Shown here: positions 16,215 through 30,162 of the stretch, one piece after another
Layout: each line of letters opens with the position of its first letter
Position numbering within the stretch: position 1 is the stretch's first letter
Assembly (NCBI RefSeq): GCF_002234535.1
Contig: NZ_CP022521.1
Coordinates: 3,782,001 to 3,846,000, forward strand
Source: Actinoalloteichus hoggarensis
GTDB lineage: Bacteria; Actinomycetota; Actinomycetes; Mycobacteriales; Pseudonocardiaceae
Length of the DNA stretch: 64,000 bases
Reading direction: 5' to 3'
Notes under the pieces: model-generated
Seen by the model: only the letters and a program-made list of their open reading frames with translations
Told to the model about the DNA's origin: nothing
Database searches by the model: none
Made by a program: the position numbers and the translations under genes

Positions 16215-16524
16215 GCCTGTCTCCGATCACACGGCGCGGTCCAGCTCCATCACACGGACCCGTCCTCCGGTCGCCCGACGCCGAACGCCGTCCATGCCCG
16301 AGACCGAATCGCCGAGTCACCGAACGCGATCAGCCGTCCCGACCACCGCACCGACTGCTCGTCCGGCCCGCTCGGCCCGGGCCGCCCGCGAAGCCGAGCG
16401 GTCTGCTCCCCGGAACCGGGCCGCGTTCGAGGGCCGCCGTCACCCGCCCATCCCGATCGATCAACAGCCGAAGTGCAGACCTGGCGAGCCCCTCGCCCGC
16501 GCCGCCGTCCAAGGAGGACCACCA
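16215..16524. other. Region upstream of the P450 gene
   Basis: Holds the ribosome site AAGGAGG at 16511-16517 for the P450. An open plus-strand frame extends through here into the P450, but its composition is not P450-like, so it is treated as untranslated. Confidence 0.5.
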
Positions 16525-17736
16525 GTGACCACTGCGGACCGACAGCCGCTCGACTACCCCTTCGCCCTGCCGACGGCCGACGAGCCGCCGCCGGAGTGGG
16601 CACGCCTACGCCAGGAGTGTCCGGTCGCCGCGATCCGACTGGCCAGCGGTGACGAGGCGCTGCTGCTCACCCGCTACGAGGACGTGAGACAGGTGCTCGG
16701 CGACCCTCGTTTCACCCGCTCGCTCAGCGCGGACGACGCCGCGCGCGTCACGGCCAACGAATCCGGTGGCATCTTCGGGTCCGCCAGCGCGATCGACGCC
16801 TCGACGGACGCGCACCAGCAGTGGCGCAGGCTGGTCGGCAAGGCGTTCACCGCCAAGCGGATGTCTCAGATGCGGCCCGCCATCGAGGCGATGGCGGCTC
16901 GGCTGCTCGACGAGATGTGCGCACGGGGGGCGCCCGCCGATCTGGTCGCCTCGTTCGCCTTCCCGTTACCGGTCTGGGTGATCTGCGATCTGCTGGGCGT
17001 GCCGGATTCCGACCGCGACCGCTTCTCCTACTGGTCCGACACCATGCTCAGCCTCGATCGGTACGAGCAGACGGAGATCGACAGCGCTCAGCAGGAGTTC
17101 GGCGAGTACTTCGCGGCCCACATCGCGACTCGGCGGGCCGAGCCCGGCGACGATCTGCTCAGCGAGCTGATCGCCGTCACGGACGCCGCCGACGGCAGGC
17201 TTCCCGAGGAGCTGCTCATGCTCACCGGGCAGGGTCTGCTGGTGGCGGGGCATGAGACCACGGCGAACATGATCTCGAAGATGGTGGTGCTGCTGCTCAG
17301 CGAACGGAGCCGGTGGACGGCGGTGGTCGAGGATCCGTCGTTGGTGCGTACAGCCGCCGAGGAGGCGCTGCGGTTCGACGCCAACGCCGGCTTCGGCCTG
17401 CCCCGCTATCTCACCGAGGAGATCGAGGTCGGCGGCCGGACGATGCCGCGGGGGACGACGATCGTCACCAGCCTCGCGTCGGCGAATCGCGACGAGCAGG
17501 TCTTCGTCGATGCCGACGACATGGACCTTCGTCGTGCACCCAATCCGCACCTCGCCTTCGGGGTGGGTCCGCACTCCTGCCTCGGGCAGGCGTTGGCCCG
17601 TACCGAACTCCAGGCCGTGCTGAGTGTGCTGGTGCGGAGGCTGCCCGGTCTGGATCTCGCCGTCCCCGTCGAGGAGCTGCCGTTGCGTAAGGGGCTGCTC
17701 GTGGGCGGGCTCGAACGGCTGCCCGTGCGGTGGTGA
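16525..17736 (+). CDS. Cytochrome P450
   Basis: GTG 16525 follows AAGGAGG (16511-16517) by 7 bases. The 403 residues match class I bacterial P450 length. Motifs: I-helix AGHETTA near 238-244 with the acid-alcohol pair region replaced by E-T, ExxR as EEALRF near 280, and haem loop FGVGPHSCLGQALAR with Cys at about 352. Early landmarks PFALPTADEPPPEWARLRQECPV and DEALLLTRYEDVRQVLGDPRFTRS are typical of soluble actinomycete CYP105/107-like enzymes. It hydroxylates an unknown small molecule using electrons from a ferredoxin; a 3Fe-4S ferredoxin gene lies 406 bp downstream on the same strand. No reductase gene is adjacent. Confidence 0.96.
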   Translation: MTTADRQPLDYPFALPTADEPPPEWARLRQECPVAAIRLASGDEALLLTRYEDVRQVLGDPRFTRSLSADDAARVTANESGGIFGSASAIDASTDAHQQWRRLVGKAFTAKRMSQMRPAIEAMAARLLDEMCARGAPADLVASFAFPLPVWVICDLLGVPDSDRDRFSYWSDTMLSLDRYEQTEIDSAQQEFGEYFAAHIATRRAEPGDDLLSELIAVTDAADGRLPEELLMLTGQGLLVAGHETTANMISKMVVLLLSERSRWTAVVEDPSLVRTAAEEALRFDANAGFGLPRYLTEEIEVGGRTMPRGTTIVTSLASANRDEQVFVDADDMDLRRAPNPHLAFGVGPHSCLGQALARTELQAVLSVLVRRLPGLDLAVPVEELPLRKGLLVGGLERLPVRW

Positions 17737-18142: not shown

Positions 18143-18337
18143 ATGCATGTGGACGTGGACACCGAGAAGTGCTGTGGTGCGGGCCAGTGCGTACTGCTCG
18201 CACCCGAGGTGTTCGATCAACGCGAAGAGGACGGCATCGTCGTGCTGCTCGACGCCGAGCCTGCCGAAGAGCAGCACGGACCTGTGCGGGAGGCGGCGGC
18301 CGTGTGTCCCGGTATGGCCATCTCCCTCACCCCGTGA
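18143..18337 (+). CDS. Ferredoxin, 3Fe-4S type (P450 partner)
   Basis: ATG 18143 follows GAAGGGA by 6 bases and gives 64 residues: MHVDVDTEKCCGAGQCVLL. Cluster ligands are the Cys of the CCGAGQC motif and CP near the C-terminus (AAVCPGMAISL). With Gly/Ala in place of the fourth Cys it fits single [3Fe-4S] actinomycete ferredoxins that feed P450s. It is cytosolic and acidic. The upstream P450 is the likely client. Confidence 0.92.
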   Translation: MHVDVDTEKCCGAGQCVLLAPEVFDQREEDGIVVLLDAEPAEEQHGPVREAAAVCPGMAISLTP

Positions 18338-18985: not shown

Positions 18986-19124
18986 GATGGGCTACCGTCG
19001 AGACGTCGTCCCTCCACAGGGGACGAATGCACGACGCCGTTCGACGGGGGAAGCCGGTGGGAGTCCGGCACTGTCCCGCAGCCGTGAGCATCCGAGTCCT
19101 CGGGTGTGAGTCGGAATGCCCGTC
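18986..19124 (+). promoter_or_regulatory. Cobalamin (AdoCbl-type) riboswitch
   Basis: The conserved core GGGAAGCCGGTGGGAGTCC (from 19047) with CGGCACTGTCCCGCAGCCGTGA after it is the B12-box signature. The end GAGTCGGAATGCCCGTC matches the 3' consensus of this class. GATGGGC (18986-18992) pairs with GCCCGTC (19118-19124) as closing stem P1. It sits about 105 bp upstream of the first gene of a three-gene operon. The class normally lowers expression when cobalamin is plentiful, so the operon should be induced by B12 shortage. Confidence 0.93.
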
Positions 19125-19229
19125 AACGGTTCTGTTCAGCTCCTCTGTCGCGGTGTGCAGACCGGAGCTTCGGTGCCCCTAAGGCGGGTCCGGGCTGCGG
19201 TGTGCCCGAACCGAAGGGAACTCCAGGAC

Positions 19230-19811
19230 ATGTCCTCGAGCCGCTCCGTCCGACGTCGTCTCTTAGCCGGTCTCTTCGCAGGTTCGCTTCTTCTCTTCGG
19301 CGGCACCGCCGCCGCGGCCGTCCCGGCCGAGACCTCCGCCGCCGACTCGGCCGCCGTCGTCTTCGCCGAGGGTCCCTGCACGGGCCCGACCGGTGTCACG
19401 GTCGTCGTCGACTTCACCGGTCACGCGGGCGGCGACGTCGTCCGGCACTGCACCGAGAGCGACCCGGCGACGGCCTTCGCCGCGCTGGCCGGGCTGGGTC
19501 TCGCCCCCGAGCACGGCATCGGCCAGGGCGAGGCGGGTCCCTACCAGTACCTGTGCCGGATCGACGGTCTCCCCTCGCTCGCCGACGATGCGTGCGACGG
19601 CTTCCTGCCCAACGCGCCGTACTGGGCGTTCTGGGTGCCGAACGCGACCGCCGATGCGTGGGGTTACGCCGATGAGGGCGTCGACACCTACGACCCGCCG
19701 CAGGGCGACGTCCTCGGCTTCTCCTTCGGTGCGGGCACCGCGGCCGACCCGAACGAGATGAGCCTGACGCTCGAGGAGGCGCTCGACCCGAACTGGACGT
19801 CGACTCCCTGA
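19230..19811 (+). CDS. Secreted DUF4430 (transcobalamin C-domain-like) protein
   Basis: ATG 19230 is preceded by AGGA at a short distance and gives 193 residues. Signal peptide about 1-31: SRSVRRRLLAGLFAGSLLLFGGTAAAAVPA. The mature part is a DUF4430-like beta domain: GVTVVVDFTGHAGGDVVRHC, FAALAGLGLAPEHG, QYLCRIDGLPSL, APYWAFWVPNATADAWGY and GDVLGFSFGAG. In animals this domain forms the C-terminal half of transcobalamin and intrinsic factor, contacting the upper face of B12. Four Cys could make two disulfides. There is no membrane anchor, so it is likely released or held by partners. It is directly under the cobalamin riboswitch, and its stop overlaps the next start (TGATG). Confidence 0.85.
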   Translation: MSSSRSVRRRLLAGLFAGSLLLFGGTAAAAVPAETSAADSAAVVFAEGPCTGPTGVTVVVDFTGHAGGDVVRHCTESDPATAFAALAGLGLAPEHGIGQGEAGPYQYLCRIDGLPSLADDACDGFLPNAPYWAFWVPNATADAWGYADEGVDTYDPPQGDVLGFSFGAGTAADPNEMSLTLEEALDPNWTSTP

Positions 19812-21394
19812 TGTTCAGGTCCCTTCTCGGCCTGACGGCGGGAGCGCTGCTCCTCGTCTCAACGGTCGTCCCCTCTGCTGCCTCGGCCGACCCGGCGTTC
19901 GACGTCGGGTCGGCCGAGGCCGGTACGGCGGCGGAGTTCCTGGAACGGGAGCTCGTCCGGCTCGACTACGTCTATCCCAGCGCCATGCCGGGGACCCCGG
20001 ACCCTGGTCTGCAGGCCGACGCCCTGTTGGGGCTGTATGCGGCAGGTCGAACGGGAACCACCTTCGATCTCGGCGTCCGCGCACTGCGCGACATGTACTA
20101 CAACGGCAATCTGGCCAACTCCGGCGTCATCGCGAAACGCCTGCTGGTGGCCCTGCGTGCCGGGGTCGATCCGACGAACTGGGGCGTCGACTCCAATGGG
20201 GACCGGATCGATCTGGTGGACCGGCTGGAATCGACGCTCGACGTCGACGGCCGTTACCGCAACCTGAACGCGGGTGACTACGATCCCCGCCGAGATCTGT
20301 CGAACACGTTCTCCCAGGCGTTGGCGCTGATCGCCGTGGACGAGTACGCCGCGCGCACCGGGACGCCCGTCGACCAGCGCGCCGCCGTGGACTACCTCCT
20401 CCGCCAGCAGTGTCCGAGCGGCGGCTTCCGTCCGAACCCCCCACCGGAGGACGTCGGCTCCCGCTGCTCCGAGGCCGACGACAAGCTCGTCAGCGTCGAC
20501 AACACCGCGATGGCGGTCTGGGCGCTCGCCGAGGTCGGCGGCAGTCCCGGCGCGCTGGACCGGGGTGTGCGCTGGCTGCTCGACCGTCAGCATCCCGACG
20601 GCGCCTTCGGCTTCGACTCGTCGTCACCGGAGTTGATCGCCTCGACGCTCAACGCCAACAGCACCGGGCTCGCCGCCCTCGCGCTCACCGTCGCGAATCA
20701 GGCCGGACCCGCTGGACGCGCGGGCGGCTGGTTGACGTCGATCCAGCTGGGCAACGGCGTCGATCCGGGCGCCATGATCGGCGCCGTCTCCTATTCGGCA
20801 CGCGACTATCTGGACGCCCAGGTCGACGGGCCGCTGTACTGGAGCCGCGCGGGCAATCAAGACCGGCTGCGGCGGGCGACGGCACAGGCGCTGCTGGGTC
20901 TGTCGGCGACCCCGCCCGCCGAACCGCCCGACTCGCCGACGGTCCCGCCGACGACGAATCCGCCTGGTGAACCAGGTCCGACCGGCCCCCCCGGTGCACC
21001 CGGGCAGCCGGGACAACCCGGCGCGCCGGGACAGCCGGGCCTTCCCGGGCAGCCGGGCCTGCCGGGTGAGCCGGGACATCCCGGCTATCCGGGAGCAGCC
21101 GGAGACGCGGGGGCGCCAGGACTCGGTGGGGCGCCGGGTTCGGGGGCCGAACCACCGAGCGCGGTCGCTCAGACACCTCGGCCCGAGCCGCCGCCCGCCG
21201 TCGCGCAGGCGCCGTCGCCCGGTGGCGAGCCGACCGGACAGGGCGCCGCGCCGGAAACCTCGCTCGCGTCCTCGGTGAGCGACTTCCTACGCAGTCCGGC
21301 GGGCCTGACGTCCTCGGCGGTGGTGGCGTTGCTGCTGGCCACGATCAGTTACCTGCTGATCAGCAGGCCTCGACGACGGGGCGGTGCGGTGTGA
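19811..21394 (+). CDS. Transcobalamin-like alpha/alpha-barrel surface protein with collagen-like stalk and membrane anchor
   Basis: ATG 19811 shares a base with the previous stop. The 527 residues divide as follows: signal peptide 1-26; helical barrel about 30-370 of the prenyltransferase/squalene-cyclase-repeat type ([88 protein letters not shown]); Gly-X-Y collagen-like run of about 20 triplets at 385-444; Pro/Ala-rich linker; single helix [17 protein letters not shown]; basic tail RPRRRGGAV. The N-terminal half of transcobalamin is an alpha6/alpha6 barrel of this class. With the riboswitch and flanking DUF4430 genes, cobalamin capture at the cell surface is the best inference. No catalytic DXDD or isoprenoid pathway context is seen. 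Confidence 0.85.
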
Positions 21395-22266
21395 TGAGCC
21401 TCGCCCGTCTCGTCACGGCGGGGCTGCTCGCCGCGGCCATGCTGATCGCTCCGACCCCCGCCCCGGGCGCCGCGCAGACCTGCACGACCGAGACCGGCGT
21501 CGTGGTGGTCGTCGACTTCGGGGCCCTCGGCGGCACCGTGTCCCGCTGCGTCCCCGGCACCCCGGACACGGGTTACGCGGCGCTGCAGGAGGCCGGCTTC
21601 CGGCTCGCGGGGACCGCGCACGACGGCGCCGGGTTCATCTGCCGTATCGACGATCGGCCGGGGCCAGAACAGGAGCCGTGTGACGACACGCCCTCCGGGA
21701 ACGCCTACTGGTCGTACTGGATCGACGAGGGCGGCAGCGGCTGGTCGTACAGCACGCGCGGCGCGTTGGCGTCCTATCCGACGGCCGATCGGGTGGAGGG
21801 CTGGTCCTTCGGTGCGGGCGAGCCACCGGGGATGACGGCGGCGGCGGCCAGGGCTCGGTTCGCCGCGGGCGGGGATGACGGCGCGCCGAATCCCGGTGAT
21901 CCCGCGCCGCCCGCCGCGCCGGGAGATCCTGCGCCCGGCGGCGCGGCCGACCAGCCGCGTCAGCCTGCGCCGCCCCCCGACGGCCGGCCGGCCCCGACGG
22001 ACGTCGAGTCCGGCCGGGGTGCGCCGGATTCGGGCGGTCCCGAGGACACGGACGGGGAAGGACCGTCGGGGGCCGAGAGCACGCCCGCCGCCGAGGGAGC
22101 GAGCGGCCGAGACCCCGCCGGCGCGGCGGAAGGCACCGAGCAGACCGCCCAGGAGGCCGCGGAGACCGGCGGCGTGCCGTGGGCGACGATCATCGCCTTC
22201 GCCGCGATCTGGGTGCTGGGCATCGGCGCCGGGATCATCGCCCGCCGTCGCCGCGCGGCCGAATGA
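21391..22266 (+). CDS. Membrane-anchored DUF4430 protein
   Basis: The start is GTG 21391 or ATG 21394; both overlap the upstream TGA, so translation is coupled. About 291 residues: signal peptide to about 30 (ARLVTAGLLAAAMLIAPTPAPGAAQ), DUF4430 domain about 31-150 (GVVVVVDFGALGGTVSRC, YAALQEAGFRLAG, FICRIDDRPG, NAYWSYWIDEGGSGWSYS, VEGWSFGAG), a Pro/Gly/Asp-rich linker of about 100 residues, then helix WATIIAFAAIWVLGIGAGII and a basic tail. It is a clear paralogue of the first operon gene, with the same four Cys positions, but wall-spanning and anchored. It probably supplies the second half of a two-part B12-binding site with the barrel protein. Confidence 0.85.
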   Translation: MMSLARLVTAGLLAAAMLIAPTPAPGAAQTCTTETGVVVVVDFGALGGTVSRCVPGTPDTGYAALQEAGFRLAGTAHDGAGFICRIDDRPGPEQEPCDDTPSGNAYWSYWIDEGGSGWSYSTRGALASYPTADRVEGWSFGAGEPPGMTAAAARARFAAGGDDGAPNPGDPAPPAAPGDPAPGGAADQPRQPAPPPDGRPAPTDVESGRGAPDSGGPEDTDGEGPSGAESTPAAEGASGRDPAGAAEGTEQTAQEAAETGGVPWATIIAFAAIWVLGIGAGIIARRRRAAE

Positions 22267-23142: not shown

Positions 23143-24009
23143 TCACACGACGGCGGAGCCGTTGAACAGGAACAACACGATCGCCAGGGCTGCCGTCAAC
23201 ACGGCGGCGCGGAAGGGTCGGCGGCTGTCCGGGGCGGCGGGGATCGCCGTCCCCGCGATCGCCACCGCCGCCGCCACCGCCGCGATGAGCAGACTCGGCA
23301 GTCCGATCCGTCCCGGGGTCCCCACCAGCAGCACGCCCACGGCGGCGAGCATCACCAGCGGCGTCAGCGTCCGGCAGGCGGTCCGACCGATGCGCTGCGG
23401 GAAGCCGCGGACCCCCGTCACCAGGTCGCCCTCGATGTCCGGCAGCGCGTTGACCAGGTGTGCGCCCATCCCCAGCAGTGCGGCGGCGACCACCGCCCAC
23501 CAGGCGGGCCAGGGAGCGCCCGGCAGGCCGAGTGTCACGAACGCGGGCAGACTGCCGAAGCCCACCGCGTAGGCGAGCGGGGAGAGCACCGTGCGTTTGA
23601 GGCCGACGTTGTAGGCCCAGCCGGCCGCCACCATGCCGAACAGGTGCACCGAACCGGCGATCAGCCCGTTGGCCAGCGACAGCGGGATGCACACCAGCAC
23701 CGCGATCACCGCGGCGACACCGACGGAGCGCGGCGACAGCAGGCCCGCGGCCACGGGCTTGTCTCGGCGGCCGGTGGCGAGATCGCGGCGGGCATCCCAC
23801 GCGTCGTTGGACCAGCCGATCGACAGCTGTCCGGCCAGCACCGTGGCGGCGACCAGCACCGAGCCGCCCACGCCACGGCCGATCGCCGCGGCGAGCACGG
23901 TGGTGAACAGGGTGACCGCCACGGCGGGCTCGGGATGGGCGCTGCCCAGCAGCGCGCTCAGGCGGGCGGTCGGGGACACCGACGGGGCTGATCGACGCTC
24001 CAGGTCCAC
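23143..24009 (-). CDS. UbiA family prenyltransferase
   Basis: The 288-residue protein starts MDLERRSAPSVSPTARLSALLG. Two Asp-rich motifs are present: SNDAWDARRDLATGRRDKP (the NDxxDxxxD type) at about 66-83 and DIEGDLVTGVRGFPQRIG in the second half. Seven to nine hydrophobic helices surround them. UbiA enzymes transfer a prenyl chain to an aromatic or quinone acceptor in the membrane using Mg2+. Together with the ICMT-type methyltransferase, FAD oxidoreductase and type III PKS that follow on the other side, it suggests a prenylated or quinone-type phenolic product. No ribosome site stands out before ATG 24009. A degenerate copy of its 3' end lies just downstream. Confidence 0.92.
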   Translation of the reverse strand: MDLERRSAPSVSPTARLSALLGSAHPEPAVAVTLFTTVLAAAIGRGVGGSVLVAATVLAGQLSIGWSNDAWDARRDLATGRRDKPVAAGLLSPRSVGVAAVIAVLVCIPLSLANGLIAGSVHLFGMVAAGWAYNVGLKRTVLSPLAYAVGFGSLPAFVTLGLPGAPWPAWWAVVAAALLGMGAHLVNALPDIEGDLVTGVRGFPQRIGRTACRTLTPLVMLAAVGVLLVGTPGRIGLPSLLIAAVAAAVAIAGTAIPAAPDSRRPFRAAVLTAALAIVLFLFNGSAVV

Positions 24010-24466
24010 CAGCCCAGTGATACACGCGAAACGCCGTCATCCGCCCGATCGCCACGCCGACACCCTGTCTGCTTCGCCGCCCGTCGACGCCGGCCGTTCT
24101 GATCGACCGGACGGCGCGGCACCGATCCGATCTCGCGCTTGAAGCCGACGCGGGCGTCACGATGCGTCTGCTGCGACTCGGTCTGTCCTACGGCAGGTCG
24201 ACACACCGTCCACGGCGACGAGCTCCATCGCAGGGCCGCCGCAGGGCCGCGAGTCCGCGCGACGGGCCGGAGTCGATTCCGCCGGACGCGCCGAGAACAC
24301 CCGAACGCTGAAGCCGATCACGGCCGCACAGGCGCGTCGGCCACGAGCCGCACCGGGTGCACCGGAAGGAGGCGGCAGGCACCGCCGCCCGGGTGACAGG
24401 CCGCACACAGTCCGAGGTGGTGGCCGGCAACGACCGTGTCGGCCGCCTCGGAGACGGCGGATCGGG
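24010..24466. other. Intergenic region upstream of UbiA gene
   Basis: No recognisable gene. It presumably contains promoters for the UbiA gene (minus) and the genes starting at 24467/24973 (plus). Confidence 0.45.
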
Positions 24467-24967
24467 GTGAGCGTCATCTCGGCGGCCGCCTCGCCGCCAC
24501 GTCCGCGGCTCGCCGCCCACGGCAGAGCCATCGCCCAACCGCTCGCCGAGGCCGTCGCCGCCGTCCCCATCGACGTCGCGGGTGCCGCGATCAGAATCAC
24601 CATCAGCACCGATCGTCCCGCCGAGCGGGCCTGCCACGACCTCGGGGACGACCCTCTCGCGTCGGGCCGGCAGGTCTGCTTCGCGCTGTCGGTCGCCTCC
24701 CGGTCGGTGATCGGCGTCTACCGACCGCTGTCGGAGCCGCTGGGACTCGCCCACCCGCGGTGCCTCGTCATGCGGTCCGAGCGACCTGATCCGGCAGGGG
24801 CGGGCACGCACCCGCCGGACGATCGCATTGGACGGATGCCGGTCGGGACGATCCGGCGCCTCGGCCGGCGGATCGGCGTGGCGACGGGAGGCGGGGGCGG
24901 GACGATGCCGGTTATCGTCGACGGGAAGATCCGCACGAGACCGGTCCCGACCTTCGACGACGGGTAG
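24467..24967 (+). CDS. Hypothetical 166-residue protein (doubtful)
   Basis: GTG 24467 to TAG 24967. For the first 100 codons nearly every third base is G or C, as in real genes here. The sequence IRITISTDRPAERACHDLGDD and RQVCFALSVASRSVIGVYRPL has ordinary protein composition, but the last 60 residues are Gly/Arg-rich and less convincing. No family match. It ends 5 bp before the ICMT-type gene, so if real it would be co-transcribed. A competing open frame covers the same DNA on the other strand. Confidence 0.3.
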   Translation: MSVISAAASPPRPRLAAHGRAIAQPLAEAVAAVPIDVAGAAIRITISTDRPAERACHDLGDDPLASGRQVCFALSVASRSVIGVYRPLSEPLGLAHPRCLVMRSERPDPAGAGTHPPDDRIGRMPVGTIRRLGRRIGVATGGGGGTMPVIVDGKIRTRPVPTFDDG

Positions 24968-24972
24968 TCCCC

Positions 24973-25488
24973 ATGCTGTTCTACACCCTCCTCGTCCTGG
25001 CCGTCGCGCTCGAGCGACTCGCCGAACTCGTCGTGGCGCGGCGCAACGGCCGACGCAGCCTGGCCCGCGGCGCGGTGGAGTCCGGCCGAGGCCACTACCC
25101 GGTGATGGTCGCGCTGCACACCGGGCTGCTCGTCGCCTGCCTCGCCGAGGCCGCGCTGCTGGACCGGCCCTTCATCCCCGCGCTCGGCATCCCGATGGTC
25201 GTGCTGGTGGTGCTGGCCCAGGCCTTGCGCTGGTGGTGCATCGTCTCACTCGGCGACGCCTGGAACACCCGCGTCCTGGTGGTGCCGGGCGCGGAACCGG
25301 TCCGCGGCGGCCCGTACCGCCTTCTCCGACACCCCAACTACGTGGCGGTGGTGGTGGAGATCGTCGCGCTGCCGTTGGTGCATTCGGCCTGGCTGACGGC
25401 GGTGGTGTTCACCCTGGCCAACGCGGCGCTGCTCACGGTCCGCATCCGCTGCGAGGACAAGGCTCTGACACAGCTCGCGACCGTATGA
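24973..25488 (+). CDS. Isoprenylcysteine carboxyl methyltransferase-family membrane methyltransferase
   Basis: The 171-residue protein begins MLFYTLLVLAVALERLAELVVARRNGR and has about four hydrophobic helices. The SAM-binding ICMT/PEMT signature is PYRLLRHPNYVAVVVEI, with AWNTRVLVVPGAEPVRGG upstream of it. Members next to type III PKS genes (SrsB-like) O-methylate alkylresorcinol- or quinone-type lipids in the membrane, the most likely role here. Its stop overlaps the start of the FAD enzyme gene by 4 bases (ATGA). The ribosome site at the ATG is weak. Confidence 0.9.
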   Translation: MLFYTLLVLAVALERLAELVVARRNGRRSLARGAVESGRGHYPVMVALHTGLLVACLAEAALLDRPFIPALGIPMVVLVVLAQALRWWCIVSLGDAWNTRVLVVPGAEPVRGGPYRLLRHPNYVAVVVEIVALPLVHSAWLTAVVFTLANAALLTVRIRCEDKALTQLATV

Positions 25489-26522
25489 GGCTCGATCACG
25501 ACCTGCTGATCGCGGGCGGCGGACCCGCCGGGCTGGCCACCGCCCTGTACGCCGTCCGGGCCGGGCTGCGGCCGGTGGTGCTGGAGCCGCGTGCCGCACC
25601 GGCGGACAAGGCCTGCGGCGAGGGGTTGATGCCCGGCGCGGTGCGGGCGTTGACCGCGCTCGACGTGGCGGTGCCCGGACTGCCGATCGAGGGCGTGCAC
25701 TACGTCCAGGGTGCCCATCGGGTGCGGGCGGCCTTCCGCGCCGGTCCCGGCCGCGGGGTGCGCCGGACCGTGCTCCATGCGGCGCTGCACGAGGCGGTGC
25801 TGGCCGCGGGCGTGCCCATCGTGTCCGCCCGAGTCGACGAGGTGCGGGCGGACGCGACGGGGGTGACCGTGCTCGGCCCGGATCTGCGCGGCCGCTGGCT
25901 GGCGGCCGCCGACGGGCTGCACTCGCCGACGGCCCGCGCCTTCGGTCTCCGAATCGAGGATCCGAGGCCGGCCCGGTACGGCCTGCGCAGACACTTCGCC
26001 GTCGCTCCAGGCTCGCCGGCCGTGGAAGTGCACTATGGAACGTTCGGCGAGGCCTATCTGACTCCGCTGGGCCCCGACCTGACCGGTGTCGCCCTGCTGA
26101 CCAGCCGCCGAGCGTCGTTCGACGAGCAGTTGGGCGGGTATCCCGCGCTGGCGGAGCGGTTCCCCTCGCAGCTGGCCGTGACGGCCGTCCGCGGTGCGGG
26201 GCCGCTGCGGCAGCGGATGCGACGACGAGTCGCCGCCGGCGGCCGTGTGCTGTTCGTCGGAGACGCGGCAGGCTATGTGGACGCGCTGACCGGCGAGGGC
26301 ATCGCTCTCGCGCTGGCGGGGGCGGCGGCCCTGGTCGACAGCCTTCGCCGAGGCAGGCCGCAGGACTACGAACGATCCTGGTCGCGGGCGACCCGACGGC
26401 ACCGACTGCTGACGGAGTGTCTGGTGGCGGCGCGGCGGAATCCCCTCACCGCGAGCAGGATCGTCCCCGCCGCCACGCGCCTGCCCGTGGTCTTCGGCGC
26501 GGTCGTCAACGCGCTGGCGTGA
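25485..26522 (+). CDS. FAD-dependent oxidoreductase (geranylgeranyl-reductase / SrsC-like hydroxylase family)
   Basis: ATG 25485 overlaps the previous stop. The 345 residues start MRLDHDLLIAGGGPAGLATALYAVRAGLRPVVLEPR, a GxGxxG FAD fold, then KACGEGLMPGAVRAL. ADGLHSPTARAFGL is the DG motif, and LFVGDAAGYVDALTGEGIALAL is the second FAD contact. In phenolic-lipid loci such flavoproteins hydroxylate the aromatic ring toward a quinone; relatives reduce prenyl double bonds, which would also fit beside a UbiA gene. It is coupled to the methyltransferase and about 840 bp from the PKS. Confidence 0.92.
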   Translation: MRLDHDLLIAGGGPAGLATALYAVRAGLRPVVLEPRAAPADKACGEGLMPGAVRALTALDVAVPGLPIEGVHYVQGAHRVRAAFRAGPGRGVRRTVLHAALHEAVLAAGVPIVSARVDEVRADATGVTVLGPDLRGRWLAAADGLHSPTARAFGLRIEDPRPARYGLRRHFAVAPGSPAVEVHYGTFGEAYLTPLGPDLTGVALLTSRRASFDEQLGGYPALAERFPSQLAVTAVRGAGPLRQRMRRRVAAGGRVLFVGDAAGYVDALTGEGIALALAGAAALVDSLRRGRPQDYERSWSRATRRHRLLTECLVAARRNPLTASRIVPAATRLPVVFGAVVNALA

Positions 26523-27364
26523 ACGGAGGTTGATCGACCATCGAGGCGGAAGGGGGGCGCGTCGACACCCGACCATCGGTCCATCGCGGAGCCCACCCGG
26601 GATGACGCGTCACAGACGAATGACGCCCGAGCCGCACCGCAGGTCACCAAGGGCAGGCCCCGCAGGTGCAGCATGTGCGGGGGATCGGGTCGAGGTCGCG
26701 CTCGACGTGCGCGATCTCGCGTGGGCCCCGCGCAATACGGGGGTGTCCGGCGGCCTGCTAGGCGACGTGGCCGACGGGGCCGCGGGCCCGCAGGACCGCA
26801 CGCGCGGGGGTGATCCGCTGCCGGGCTACGCGTGGGACAGCCGCGCGGCGTAAGCCCCGCACCCGCAGGGTCGAACCGTTCCTCGCGGCGTCAACGCGGT
26901 CCCGATCGAGGTGGTCCCCGTGCGGGGCGGTGACTCGACCCAGGTTCGCCTCACCCCCGCCCATCGGTGGCGCATAGGCCCGGCGCGCTCTGGGGTGGAG
27001 GCCGCTCGACATGAAGCCGACGAGACGAGGGTGATTCCCGGCACCTGCGGGGACAGCCCGAGCCAGGACGCCGTGCACAGATCGACGCCGGCAAGCCCCG
27101 CGCACTCCGGGCCGCCCCGCGGACCCGGCCGTCGCTCTCGCCGGCATAGCACCCGCGCACCCGGAGACGATCCGTCCGCATCGGGAACGAGACGACCGGC
27201 GGACATCCGACCGTGACCACCTCACTCCTGCAAGGTCACGAAGTGCGCCCGAGCCGCCGCCCCTCACCCTGCCGTGCGTCGGCGACCGTGCCGGGCCCCG
27301 CCGCCGGGCCCCGCGATCGGCGCGACCCAGGCCGTCCGCAGCCCGATCACGTCGGGAACTCCGC
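26523..27364. other. Region between FAD enzyme and PKS genes
   Basis: No protein gene. Most of it is occupied by the degenerate repeat array described at 26592-27175. Confidence 0.6.
26592..27175. CRISPR. Degenerate CRISPR-like array (type I-E-like repeats), no cas genes in window
   Basis: Nine imperfect copies of a GC-rich palindromic repeat with core CCCCGCGCAC...GCGGGG followed by TG/ATG and CC. The left arm (CCCCG or variant) ends at 26662, 26730, 26798, 26859, 26920, 26982, 27040, 27100 and 27155, giving intervals 68, 68, 61, 61, 62, 58, 60 and 55. Actinomycete type I-E repeats are about 29 bp with 32-bp spacers, period 61, and share this arm pair. Copies differ at many positions, while the interspersed segments (about 32-33 bp in the middle) share nothing. 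A possible tenth, poorer copy is near 26592. The array looks old and decayed; orientation is uncertain. Confidence 0.5.
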
Positions 27365-28630
27365 TCACCAGCGGAGCAGGACCAGCTCCGCGCAGAAGCC
27401 TGGGCCCATCGCGAGCAGCAGGCCAGGGGTGCCCCCGGGCGGGAGCGGTTCGGCGAGGTTGCGACGCAACACGTCGAGGACGGACGCCGAGGAGAGGTTG
27501 CCGAGGTCCGCCAGCGACGCGCGGGTGTGCGCCAGCGCGGTCTCGGGCAGTCCGAGCGACTCGGTGACGGCGTCGATGACCTTCGGTCCGCCAGGATGGC
27601 AGATCCACGTGCCGACGTCCTCGACCGTGAGCCCGTGATCGGCGAGGAAGCCGAAGACGTCCTTGCTGAGGAAGTCGCGGGCGATGGTCGGGACGTCGGC
27701 GGAGAGCACGAGCCGGAAGCCCCCGGTGCCGATGTCCCAACCCATGACGTCCTCGGTGTCGGGGTAGAGCCTGCTGCGCGTGGCCGTGATCGCGGGAAGC
27801 GCCTGTCTCTCGTCCGTGAGCCGGATCTCCGGGCCGCCGTCGGGCCCGGCCGCCGTGGCCGATCCCCGAGCGGAACGGCCGGCCGCGGGGGATTCCGCCG
27901 CCTGCCCCGCCGCGGGGAGCCGCGCCGACCCGCCTGTCGTCCGGCGACGGCCGCCGAGCAGCACGACGGCGGCCGCGCCGTCGCCGAAGAGGCTGCTGCC
28001 GACGACGTTGGCGACGGAGACGTCGTCGCGTTGGAGGGTCAACGAGCACAGCTCCACGGACAACAGCACCGCCACCTGGTCCGGCCACGCTCGCAGGTAG
28101 TCGGCCACCCGCGCGATGCCCGCCGCGCCCGCGACGCAGCCCAGGCCGAAGAGCGGAACTCGTCTCACGTCCTCCCGGAACCCGAGTCGCCCGGCCAGGC
28201 GGGCCTCCAGCGAGGGAACGGCGAGGCCGGTCACCGTCGTGGACACCACCAGGTCGACCTCGTCGGGCCGCACCCCCGCCTCGGCCAGCGCACGGCGCAC
28301 GGCGCGCTCGCCGAGGTCGAGTGCCGCCGCCAGGTAGGCCTGGTTGGCCTCGGTGAAGCTCTCGAGCGACCGAAGCCGATCGATCGGGACCGCGAAGTGC
28401 CGCGTGTCCACTCCCGAGTTCGCCGAGATCCGCTCCGCCGCCCGACGTCGCGGACTTCCGACCGGCAGGAACTCGTCGACGAAGGCCGCCAGGATCTCCT
28501 CCTGGCGGTAGACGTGCTCCGGCAGGGCCGTGGCGGCCGCCGCGATCCGAGGAGCCGGGGTCGGCCACGCCTCGGCGTCGCTCCCCTGCTCCTCGTGATG
28601 ACCGCGGCGCGTTCCCGTGACCTGAGACAT
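27365..28630 (-). CDS. Type III polyketide synthase (chalcone/alkylresorcinol synthase-like)
   Basis: Of two ATGs at 28636 and 28630, the second has GGAAGG at a 6-base gap and is chosen, giving 421 residues. The triad is complete: Cys165 in FGLGCVAGAAG, His345 in TWICHPGGPK and Asn378 in LGNLSSAS. AMGPGFCAELVLLRW is the usual C-terminal GFGPG-like loop. The enzyme condenses malonyl-type extender units on an acyl-CoA starter to make resorcinols, pyrones or chromones. A low-complexity Ala/Gly/Ser/Arg insert at about 227-268 is unusual for the family and probably forms a surface loop. Nearby UbiA, ICMT-type and FAD genes are the likely tailoring set. Confidence 0.95.
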   Translation of the reverse strand: MSQVTGTRRGHHEEQGSDAEAWPTPAPRIAAAATALPEHVYRQEEILAAFVDEFLPVGSPRRRAAERISANSGVDTRHFAVPIDRLRSLESFTEANQAYLAAALDLGERAVRRALAEAGVRPDEVDLVVSTTVTGLAVPSLEARLAGRLGFREDVRRVPLFGLGCVAGAAGIARVADYLRAWPDQVAVLLSVELCSLTLQRDDVSVANVVGSSLFGDGAAAVVLLGGRRRTTGGSARLPAAGQAAESPAAGRSARGSATAAGPDGGPEIRLTDERQALPAITATRSRLYPDTEDVMGWDIGTGGFRLVLSADVPTIARDFLSKDVFGFLADHGLTVEDVGTWICHPGGPKVIDAVTESLGLPETALAHTRASLADLGNLSSASVLDVLRRNLAEPLPPGGTPGLLLAMGPGFCAELVLLRW

Positions 28631-29064
28631 CGACATCCTTCCCGCTCGCGTCGCCGACCCCCGTCGAGCCTGGGCCCGAAGCGGTCTTCCGGTGCGATGG
28701 GCACCCGATCGTGTCCCGGTACCGCGCACCCGTCCTCCGCCGCGGGCGGCGGATCGGCGCCGACCGGCCGCTCCGCCGCCGACGAGGGAGAAGGTGGACC
28801 GTCGCCCTTCATCATCCACGGGTTCTCGTCGCACGGCAGTCACGCGGGAGCCGGATCGGCCGGTGTGGGCGAAGCACGGTGGTGGTCGGCGGCCGTCAGG
28901 GGCGGCCGCGACGCCGGAACCCGCGTGCCGGGTGATGCTGTCGGGTGATCCCCCGAACCGGTGGCGGAGCGCGCGCCCCGCCCCGAGCACGGGGCGTGCC
29001 GGGCGCGATGATCTGCTGGGCGTCGACGCCTCGCGGGGTGCGCGGGGCGGGAGGAGAGGTGCGC
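28631..29064. other. Divergent promoter region, PKS / COG0523 GTPase
   Basis: No gene recognised. CGCCCCGC-type words recur near 28977-29050. GAGGAGAGG at 29051-29059 is the ribosome site for the GTPase. Confidence 0.5.
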
Positions 29065-30162
29065 GTGGTGGCAGGCCGGTCAAGGAGACGGATTCCCGTC
29101 GTCATCGTCGCGGGGTTCCTCGGTGCGGGGAAGACGACGCTGCTCAATCACCTGTTGACCAACCGCGCCGGGGTACGGATCGGTGTCCTGGTCAACGACT
29201 TCGGCAGTATCGAGATCGACGCGATGACGGTGGCGGGTCAGGTCGACTCGATGGTCTCGCTCGGCAACGGCTGCCTCTGCTGTGCCGTGGACACCAGCAC
29301 GGTGGACGAGCTGCTCGACCGGCTGGCCCGCCCGGCCGCCGGGATCGACGTCATCGTCATCGAGGCGAGCGGCCTGGCCGAGCCACGCGACATGATCCGG
29401 CTGGTGTTGGCGAGCGAGAACCCGCGGGTCGAGTACGGCGGGCTCGTCGAGGTGGTCGACGCCGCCGAGTTCGAGAGCACGCGATCCCGTCATCCCGATC
29501 TGGGCACCCGGCTGTCCCTGGCCGACCTCGTCGTCGTCAACAAGTCCGACCGCCTGCCCGCCGAGGGACGGGCCGCCCTGCTCGCGTCGGTGCGGGCACT
29601 GGGCGGCGGCACGCCCGTGGTCACGACCTCCCACGGTCGGATCGACCCCGAACTCCTCTTCGAGCCGCCGGAGCGCCCGCGCCCCGAGGAGCGCTTCGGC
29701 CAGCTCTCCTTCGACCAGCTCGCCCCAGGAGGCGCCGAAGGGTCCGCGCGGACGAGTGAGCAGGCGCGGCGAGACCACCAGGAGGACGGCTGCGTCGACG
29801 AGTCGCACCTGCACCACGGCTATCAGACGGTCTCCTTCAGTTCCGTGACGCCGCTGCATCCCCGTCGGCTGATGGCCTTTCTGGACGATCGGCCACCGGG
29901 GCTGTACCGGACGAAGGGCTTCGTCTACTTCGGTGTCGCCGGGCACCGGCAGAAGTTCAGTCTGCATACCGTGGGCGCGTTCCTGCGCTTCCGACGTTCT
30001 CGGTGGGCGGCGGGCGAGGATCGCGCCACGCGGCTGGTGCTGATCGGCTTCGGCATCGACGTCGAGGCCGTGCACGCGGCGCTGACGGCATGTCTGGAAC
30101 CGCGTCCCGCCGGGCTGACCGAGCAGGACATGCTGCGTGTGCTGACCTTCGTCGAGCCCTGA
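29065..30162 (+). CDS. CobW/COG0523 family GTP-binding metallochaperone-like protein
   Basis: Several GTGs cluster at 29059-29068; 29065 lies 8 bases after GAGGAG and gives 365 residues. Walker A is GFLGAGKTTLLNH; then the hallmark CxCC motif GCLCC; guanine specificity VVVNKSD; C-terminal CobW_C domain with YQTVSFSSVTPLHPRRLMAFL and GFVYFGVAGHRQKFSLH. Between them is an acidic, His-containing linker (DESHLHHGYQ). These GTPases hand Zn2+ or other metals to client enzymes or act under metal limitation. The next gene is too distant to define a client, and no Zur-like box was recognised. The cobalamin operon is 7 kb away, and a link to cobalt is speculative. Confidence 0.92.
   Translation: MVAGRSRRRIPVVIVAGFLGAGKTTLLNHLLTNRAGVRIGVLVNDFGSIEIDAMTVAGQVDSMVSLGNGCLCCAVDTSTVDELLDRLARPAAGIDVIVIEASGLAEPRDMIRLVLASENPRVEYGGLVEVVDAAEFESTRSRHPDLGTRLSLADLVVVNKSDRLPAEGRAALLASVRALGGGTPVVTTSHGRIDPELLFEPPERPRPEERFGQLSFDQLAPGGAEGSARTSEQARRDHQEDGCVDESHLHHGYQTVSFSSVTPLHPRRLMAFLDDRPPGLYRTKGFVYFGVAGHRQKFSLHTVGAFLRFRRSRWAAGEDRATRLVLIGFGIDVEAVHAALTACLEPRPAGLTEQDMLRVLTFVEP

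Follow-up and report, generated by a model that had tools for sequence, protein, structure and literature searches.

The window analysed here, a stretch of 64,000 nucleotides from the Actinoalloteichus hoggarensis genome (Pseudonocardiaceae; one contig, 6.6 Mb), contains a cobalamin riboswitch followed by three genes for exported proteins, a barrel protein (BAR) flanked by two beta proteins (D1 and D2). Most probably this locus encodes the extracellular half of a system importing vitamin B12 (corrinoids), a half that has become separated from its energy-coupling factor (ECF) transporter. The reading is based on the riboswitch, the transcobalamin-type fold of the beta domain, in-frame fusions of beta and barrel domains, the linkage of related genes to ECF operons and a predicted B12 auxotrophy. 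The probable role of the three proteins is surface capture of B12 on behalf of the transporter, because they stand behind a B12 riboswitch and because D1 and D2 are related proteins with a predicted fold like the lid (beta domain) of the B12 carriers. The original interpretation is partly supported: extracellular B12 capture is favoured on these grounds, whereas the equation of the barrel with the alpha domain of transcobalamin is at most a candidate one. To our knowledge, little is known of B12 capture outside the membrane in Gram-positive bacteria. The locus provides a testable assignment for the beta and barrel genes and their ECF transporters, and would be a case in which nature has divided the B12 carrier design between separate chains, which is relevant to the origin of animal transcobalamin.

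The operon and the folds of its proteins

The riboswitch aptamer scores above the gathering threshold of its covariance model (Table 1) and is the sole gathering-level Rfam match across the window. Both this element and the three overlapping genes behind it had been predicted correctly. The start of BAR overlaps the stop of D1 by one base, and the start of D2 overlaps the stop of BAR. In both sister species (L040 and L041) RF00174 lies ahead of the same three genes. The leader between aptamer and D1 is kept in three species of the genus and contains a CTTCGGT sequence (19168-19174) able to pair with ACCGAAG (19210-19216) just 5′ of the D1 start codon. Folding of single leader sequences gives no significant structure (z 0.02 in the window and -1.35 in a sister), and no expression-platform mechanism is therefore claimed. 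By inspection only, all three proteins have signal-peptide-like N-terminal stretches. An Arg-rich tail after a hydrophobic run ends BAR and D2, and by the same inspection no C-terminal anchor is seen in D1.

The beta domain of D2 gives a confident AlphaFold2 model (predicted local distance difference test, pLDDT, 92.7; predicted template modelling score, pTM, 0.88). Its top 15 fold matches are the beta domains of B12 carriers and the R. gnavus protein 3u7z, and the order of its elements is that of the beta-grasp fold with a hairpin after the helix, as in the transcobalamin-like SLBB fold. D1 is assigned the same fold through its homology to D2 (phmmer E 1.3e-13). The two had been called DUF4430 proteins. 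D2 does model as a transcobalamin-type beta domain, but the family label fails, as PF14478 (DUF4430) has no match in D1 or D2 at E up to 10 and none anywhere in the window genome at E 0.001. Profile A2 finds only antibody chains among PDB sequences, and hhalign places A5 in register with one DUF4430 sequence without significance. Sequence-only searches found no link; the identity of the beta domain is settled by fold comparison alone. The beta family is present in 64 of 396 sampled Actinomycetota genomes, weak partial matches counted. The closest named families, NCBIfam SCO2322_fam for the beta proteins (D1 24.9 and D2 21.9 bits, curated cutoff 85) and SCO2321_fam for BAR (76.7 bits, cutoff 300), are weak relatives below cutoff whose descriptions give no function, and the same is true of the Pfam and NCBIfam families that catch the beta family in general.

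The BAR toroid is modelled equally well (pLDDT 93.0, pTM 0.92). Its nearest solved relatives, both by sequence and by fold, are type II terpene cyclases. The best 50 fold matches listed are terpene cyclases, epimerases and hydrolases, with no transcobalamin among them. Of the proposal that the barrel and beta proteins pair the two folds of transcobalamin, the beta fold of D2 and the toroid hold good, whereas the barrel is no more than a candidate for the transcobalamin alpha domain. BAR has the class II terpene cyclase toroid fold and carries SVDN in place of the DXDD acid motif, which is missing from 59 of 60 aligned barrels, the single remaining row reading DVDD. A barrel matching terpene cyclases with intact catalytic residues had been named as evidence against B12 capture: the barrel does match terpene cyclases, but their acid motif is not intact in it. 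Toroid and D2 beta domain were modelled separately, because a mixed barrel/beta alignment with a natural fusion (L126) set beta rows onto the barrel, and the models say nothing on their mutual arrangement. The stalk of BAR, a feature not noted originally, matches the collagen family PF01391 at 33.4 bits (cutoff 27.2). Its longest Gly-X-Y run has 20 triplets, against 21 and 17 in the sister species. No run of six or more occurs in the barrel frames of the 80-locus set described below, in which two beta frames have runs of 7 and 6.

Beta and barrel domains are joined in one frame in eight of 101 sequences scanned (L044, L045, L046, L050, L071, L090, L105 and L126), always with the beta domain first; the L050 barrel continues in other frames and L090 contains a masked run. 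In a tree of 66 beta domains, D1 of the window groups with the D1 proteins of the sister species and of Amycolatopsis antarctica and with the fused L046 and L050 (96/97). A wider D1 group, apart from D2, takes in the fused L071 and L105 (98/94); long branches meet in this group (a warning of the tool), leaving the placement of these two unsure. Tandem barrels in one frame also occur (L053, L055, L069, L094, L103, L106, L109, L110, L116 and L117, of which L069 is the locus of Goodfellowiella, in the Pseudonocardiaceae), as do beta-barrel-barrel frames (L045 and L090). Such tandems perhaps provide two binding sites, or one copy is idle.

Table 1. Features of the riboswitch operon (window coordinates)
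Feature	Position	Strand	Remark
Cobalamin riboswitch aptamer, RF00174	19004-19141	+	cmscan 42 bits, gathering 31.5, E 3.4e-07
Leader, aptamer to D1 start; candidate expression platform	19142-19229	+	conserved stretch
D1, secreted beta protein	19230-19811	+	
BAR, alpha/alpha toroid protein, exported; collagen-like stalk, membrane anchor at the C-terminus	19811-21394	+	
BAR toroid domain (modelled region)	19892-20923	+	
BAR collagen-like Gly-X-Y stalk	20966-21130	+	PF01391, residues 386-440
BAR C-terminal transmembrane segment	21305-21361	+	hydrophobic run then RPRRR (inspection)
D2, beta protein, exported; Pro-rich linker, membrane anchor at the C-terminus	21391-22266	+	start GTG 21391 or ATG 21394
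D2 beta domain (modelled region)	21466-21864	+	AlphaFold2 model, PDB fold matches
D2 C-terminal transmembrane segment	22180-22239	+	hydrophobic run then RRRR (inspection)

ECF linkage, riboswitches and B12 physiology

A barrel-profile scan of genome contigs yielded 250 loci, of which the best 80, chosen by the barrel alone, were scanned with profiles for barrel, beta and the ECF components T, A and S. ECF T is found in 66 of the 80, a beta gene in 71 and all five in 62; the 14 loci without T comprise 9 below 14 kb in length and 5 above 20 kb. The genes most often run barrel-beta-T-A-S. Outside the genus, the nearest relative is Amycolatopsis antarctica (57% barrel identity), in which beta-BAR-beta-T-A-S genes follow one another behind a riboswitch. 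In L042, L047, L081, L111 and L126 additional barrel genes lie next to the ECF operon in the opposite orientation, which suggests that barrel and beta cassettes are often reshuffled.

No uptake transporter adjoins the window genes, as originally noted: CbiQ/CbiO-type genes are not adjacent to the barrel genes in the window or in the two sister species. The statement is true locally, with ECF and BtuFCD-like operons elsewhere in the genome. A search for conserved riboswitch-beta-barrel neighbourhoods and for a distant ECF transporter, as had been proposed, finds ECF genes in most loci and a separate riboswitch-ECF operon here. The single CbiQ-type T match in the window genome starts this operon, about 0.98 Mb from the window genes and directly behind its own cobalamin riboswitch (45.5 bits); the S component has no significant match among solved structures (best E 0.25). 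Close relatives of the T protein (732 and 611 bits) lie elsewhere in the genomes of the sister species, with a riboswitch before and A after them, the stretches examined ending before the position of S; in one of the sisters there is a further CbiQ-type gene, with no riboswitch. In trees the window barrel clusters with the Amycolatopsis antarctica barrel (100/100), and the window genome T protein falls among the T proteins of barrel operons, although the fork is not strong (86/89). We infer that one ancestral operon was split in this genus, with both parts keeping their B12 control.

The linkage to the riboswitch is widespread. A gathering-level cobalamin riboswitch lies within about 0.6 kb upstream of barrel or beta genes, on the same strand, in 11 of the 16 loci L040-L055 and in 10 of 14 scanned loci from the 80-locus set; the two scans share at least two genomes (L048/L064 and L051/L069), and L056 is not included. 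A core cobalamin riboswitch pattern, which detects all of the 19 Rfam hits it was tried on, occurs no more than 900 bp upstream in 67 of the 80 loci with up to one mismatch and in 73 with up to two, against none in reversed sequence for either, and in 75 against 4 with up to three. The linkage may not be universal in Streptomyces, because the available part of a published S. lividans annotation gives cbiM and cobD as the sole genes with an RNA-seq-checked cobalamin riboswitch upstream (PMC8079986). The riboswitch-barrel unit is repeatedly duplicated: L043 (G073) and L077 (Micromonospora antibiotica) have four cobalamin riboswitches per locus, and L053 and L055 have divergent riboswitch pairs, each ahead of its own barrel gene.

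The window genome has five cobalamin riboswitches, four of them over the Rfam cutoff. They stand before the genes nrdAB and metE, whose enzymes do not need B12, and before the ECF, window and BtuFCD-like operons. The organism is probably a B12 auxotroph, as judged from its gene content, because it lacks CbiC but has MetH (1183.7 bits, cutoff 1010.85) and a B12 domain of methylmalonyl-CoA mutase. CbiC, which is required for corrin synthesis and was the sole B12-synthesis gene searched for, is not found in any of four genomes, both sisters included (7 of 14 controls were positive).

The three proteins could instead supply the BtuFCD-like ATP-binding cassette transporter of the same regulon. Its operon (L039, 4800-8374, in the window genome) encodes a Peripla_BP_2 binding protein, a FecCD permease and an ATPase behind a sub-threshold riboswitch (27.9 bits) that is probably real but missed by the gathering score, and the binding protein matches NCBIfam BtuF at 66.4 bits, under the cutoff of 234. 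This recipient is unlikely, however, as the barrel and beta genes of relatives sit with ECF T-A-S genes (BtuFCD linkage was not searched there) and the ECF T protein of this genome belongs, by the fork noted above, with those of barrel operons.

Capture, hand-off and known B12 carriers

Delivery to the ECF transporter would proceed as follows. Under B12 scarcity the riboswitch, presumably an OFF switch, would permit expression of D1, BAR and D2. The barrel would be held on its collagen-like stalk, anchored in the membrane, and secreted D1 would probably shut its beta domain over the barrel with B12 in between, as the beta domain of animal transcobalamin does over alpha. Membrane-anchored D2 probably takes B12 near the membrane and would hand it on to the S component of the distantly encoded ECF transporter, behind the second B12 riboswitch. 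The pairing of D1 with the barrel is modelled on human transcobalamin because its separated alpha and beta parts assemble in a cobalamin-dependent manner, according to the accessible part of the report (PMC5599065). A fuller version is conceivable, though doubtful: a split transcobalamin glued by B12, with D1 as the lid of a stalk-borne and perhaps trimeric barrel, followed by D2 and then ECF S, the barrel having been recruited from the terpene-cyclase lineage either independently of the animal carrier or as its ancestor. If true, this would be a Gram-positive surface relay built from transcobalamin parts.

A crude scan of protein tails covered 115 barrel and 108 beta frames from the window, the two sisters and the 80 loci. 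Among the barrels, an LPXTG/LAXTG-like sorting motif ends 40 and a plain membrane segment 19, while 56 have neither; among the beta frames the corresponding numbers are 1, 67 and 40. This suggests a relay from outside to inside, from barrels at the wall to beta proteins at the membrane. One barrel gene in each of L042, L043, L077 and L081 encodes a protein without an anchor and with the common terminal motif APVLTCP; these extra barrel proteins are probably freely secreted. Alternatively, the proteins may bind a corrinoid precursor, an analogue or a cobalt complex, or may withhold B12 from rivals. D1 has no anchor and may diffuse, nearly half the barrel frames are likewise unanchored, and human transcobalamin beta binds cobinamide too, as the available text states (PMC5599065). 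Such a role is nevertheless decidedly improbable, as the riboswitches shared with nrdAB, metE and the importers, together with the missing CbiC, are in keeping with uptake for the cell's own needs.

The system is very likely of the same broad kind as one described by Burroughs et al. in 2007, yet a divergent actinobacterial clade. The accessible portion of that paper describes exported transcobalamin-like SLBB domains encoded with toroids and CbiO/CbiQ genes and predicts B12 scavenging (PMC1796856). There too an exported beta-grasp protein and an alpha/alpha toroid, often with a second beta paralogue, stand in CbiO/CbiQ-type operons. The clade covered in that portion, however, comes from low-GC Gram-positives, planctomycetes and euryarchaea, whereas the family here is actinobacterial and in the window lies outside PF14478; its members are mostly separate chains, often under B12 riboswitches, a word absent from the main text of PMC1796856. 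In the window genus the transporter genes are, moreover, detached from the operon. Animal transcobalamin, intrinsic factor and haptocorrin are one chain, alpha then beta (PMC1796856, in the same portion), in contrast to the separate genes of the window and to the eight bacterial fusions with their reversed order. Compared with other uptake systems, ECF-CbrT of Lactobacillus delbrueckii is likewise an ECF B12 importer, and the part of its description available mentions no surface capture protein (PMC5997447); the S component of the present genome, as noted, resembles no solved structure significantly. BtuG of Bacteroides also captures B12 at the surface on behalf of a transporter, but is a Gram-negative outer-membrane lipoprotein feeding BtuB according to the available text (PMC6143338); the likeness is one of function, with no shared fold claimed.

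In Streptomyces nomenclature, SCO2323-2325 are presumed by us to encode an ECF transporter. The open-access literature yielded no relevant paper on SCO2321, SCO2322, SCO2323 or SCO2325 and none combining at least two of the terms transcobalamin-like, DUF4430 and riboswitch. In our view, judged from that literature, the actinobacterial version is undescribed.

Neighbouring genes

A lack of isoprenoid context had been claimed for the locus, and locally this is wrong. A UbiA prenyltransferase gene (23146-24009, minus strand) lies about 0.9 kb downstream of D2 on the opposite strand and begins a cluster (23146-29083) that continues with an ICMT-like methyltransferase (plus), an FAD oxidoreductase (plus) and a type III polyketide synthase (minus). 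The cluster looks like one for meroterpenoid or alkyl-phenol biosynthesis. Together with the kinship of the barrel to type II terpene cyclases, it raises the alternative that an exported BAR serves this cluster as a class II terpene cyclase or prenyl-binding protein, the riboswitch being incidental. That is scarcely credible: the DXDD motif is lost in all but one of the 60 aligned barrels, BAR is by inspection exported and anchored, and of the 101 sequences scanned only those of the two sister species have matches to the four proteins (E up to 1e-20), whereas linkage to ECF genes and to riboswitches extends across many families. A cyclase serving the polyketide synthase cluster is rejected because of the broken motif and the genus-only neighbourhood. 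The four downstream genes are set aside from the B12 system because of this restriction to the sisters. A cytochrome P450 gene occupies 16294-17736, upstream of the riboswitch, and Pfam finds nothing in a very small frame near 18147-18337; neither the P450 nor the downstream genes seem part of the B12 system.

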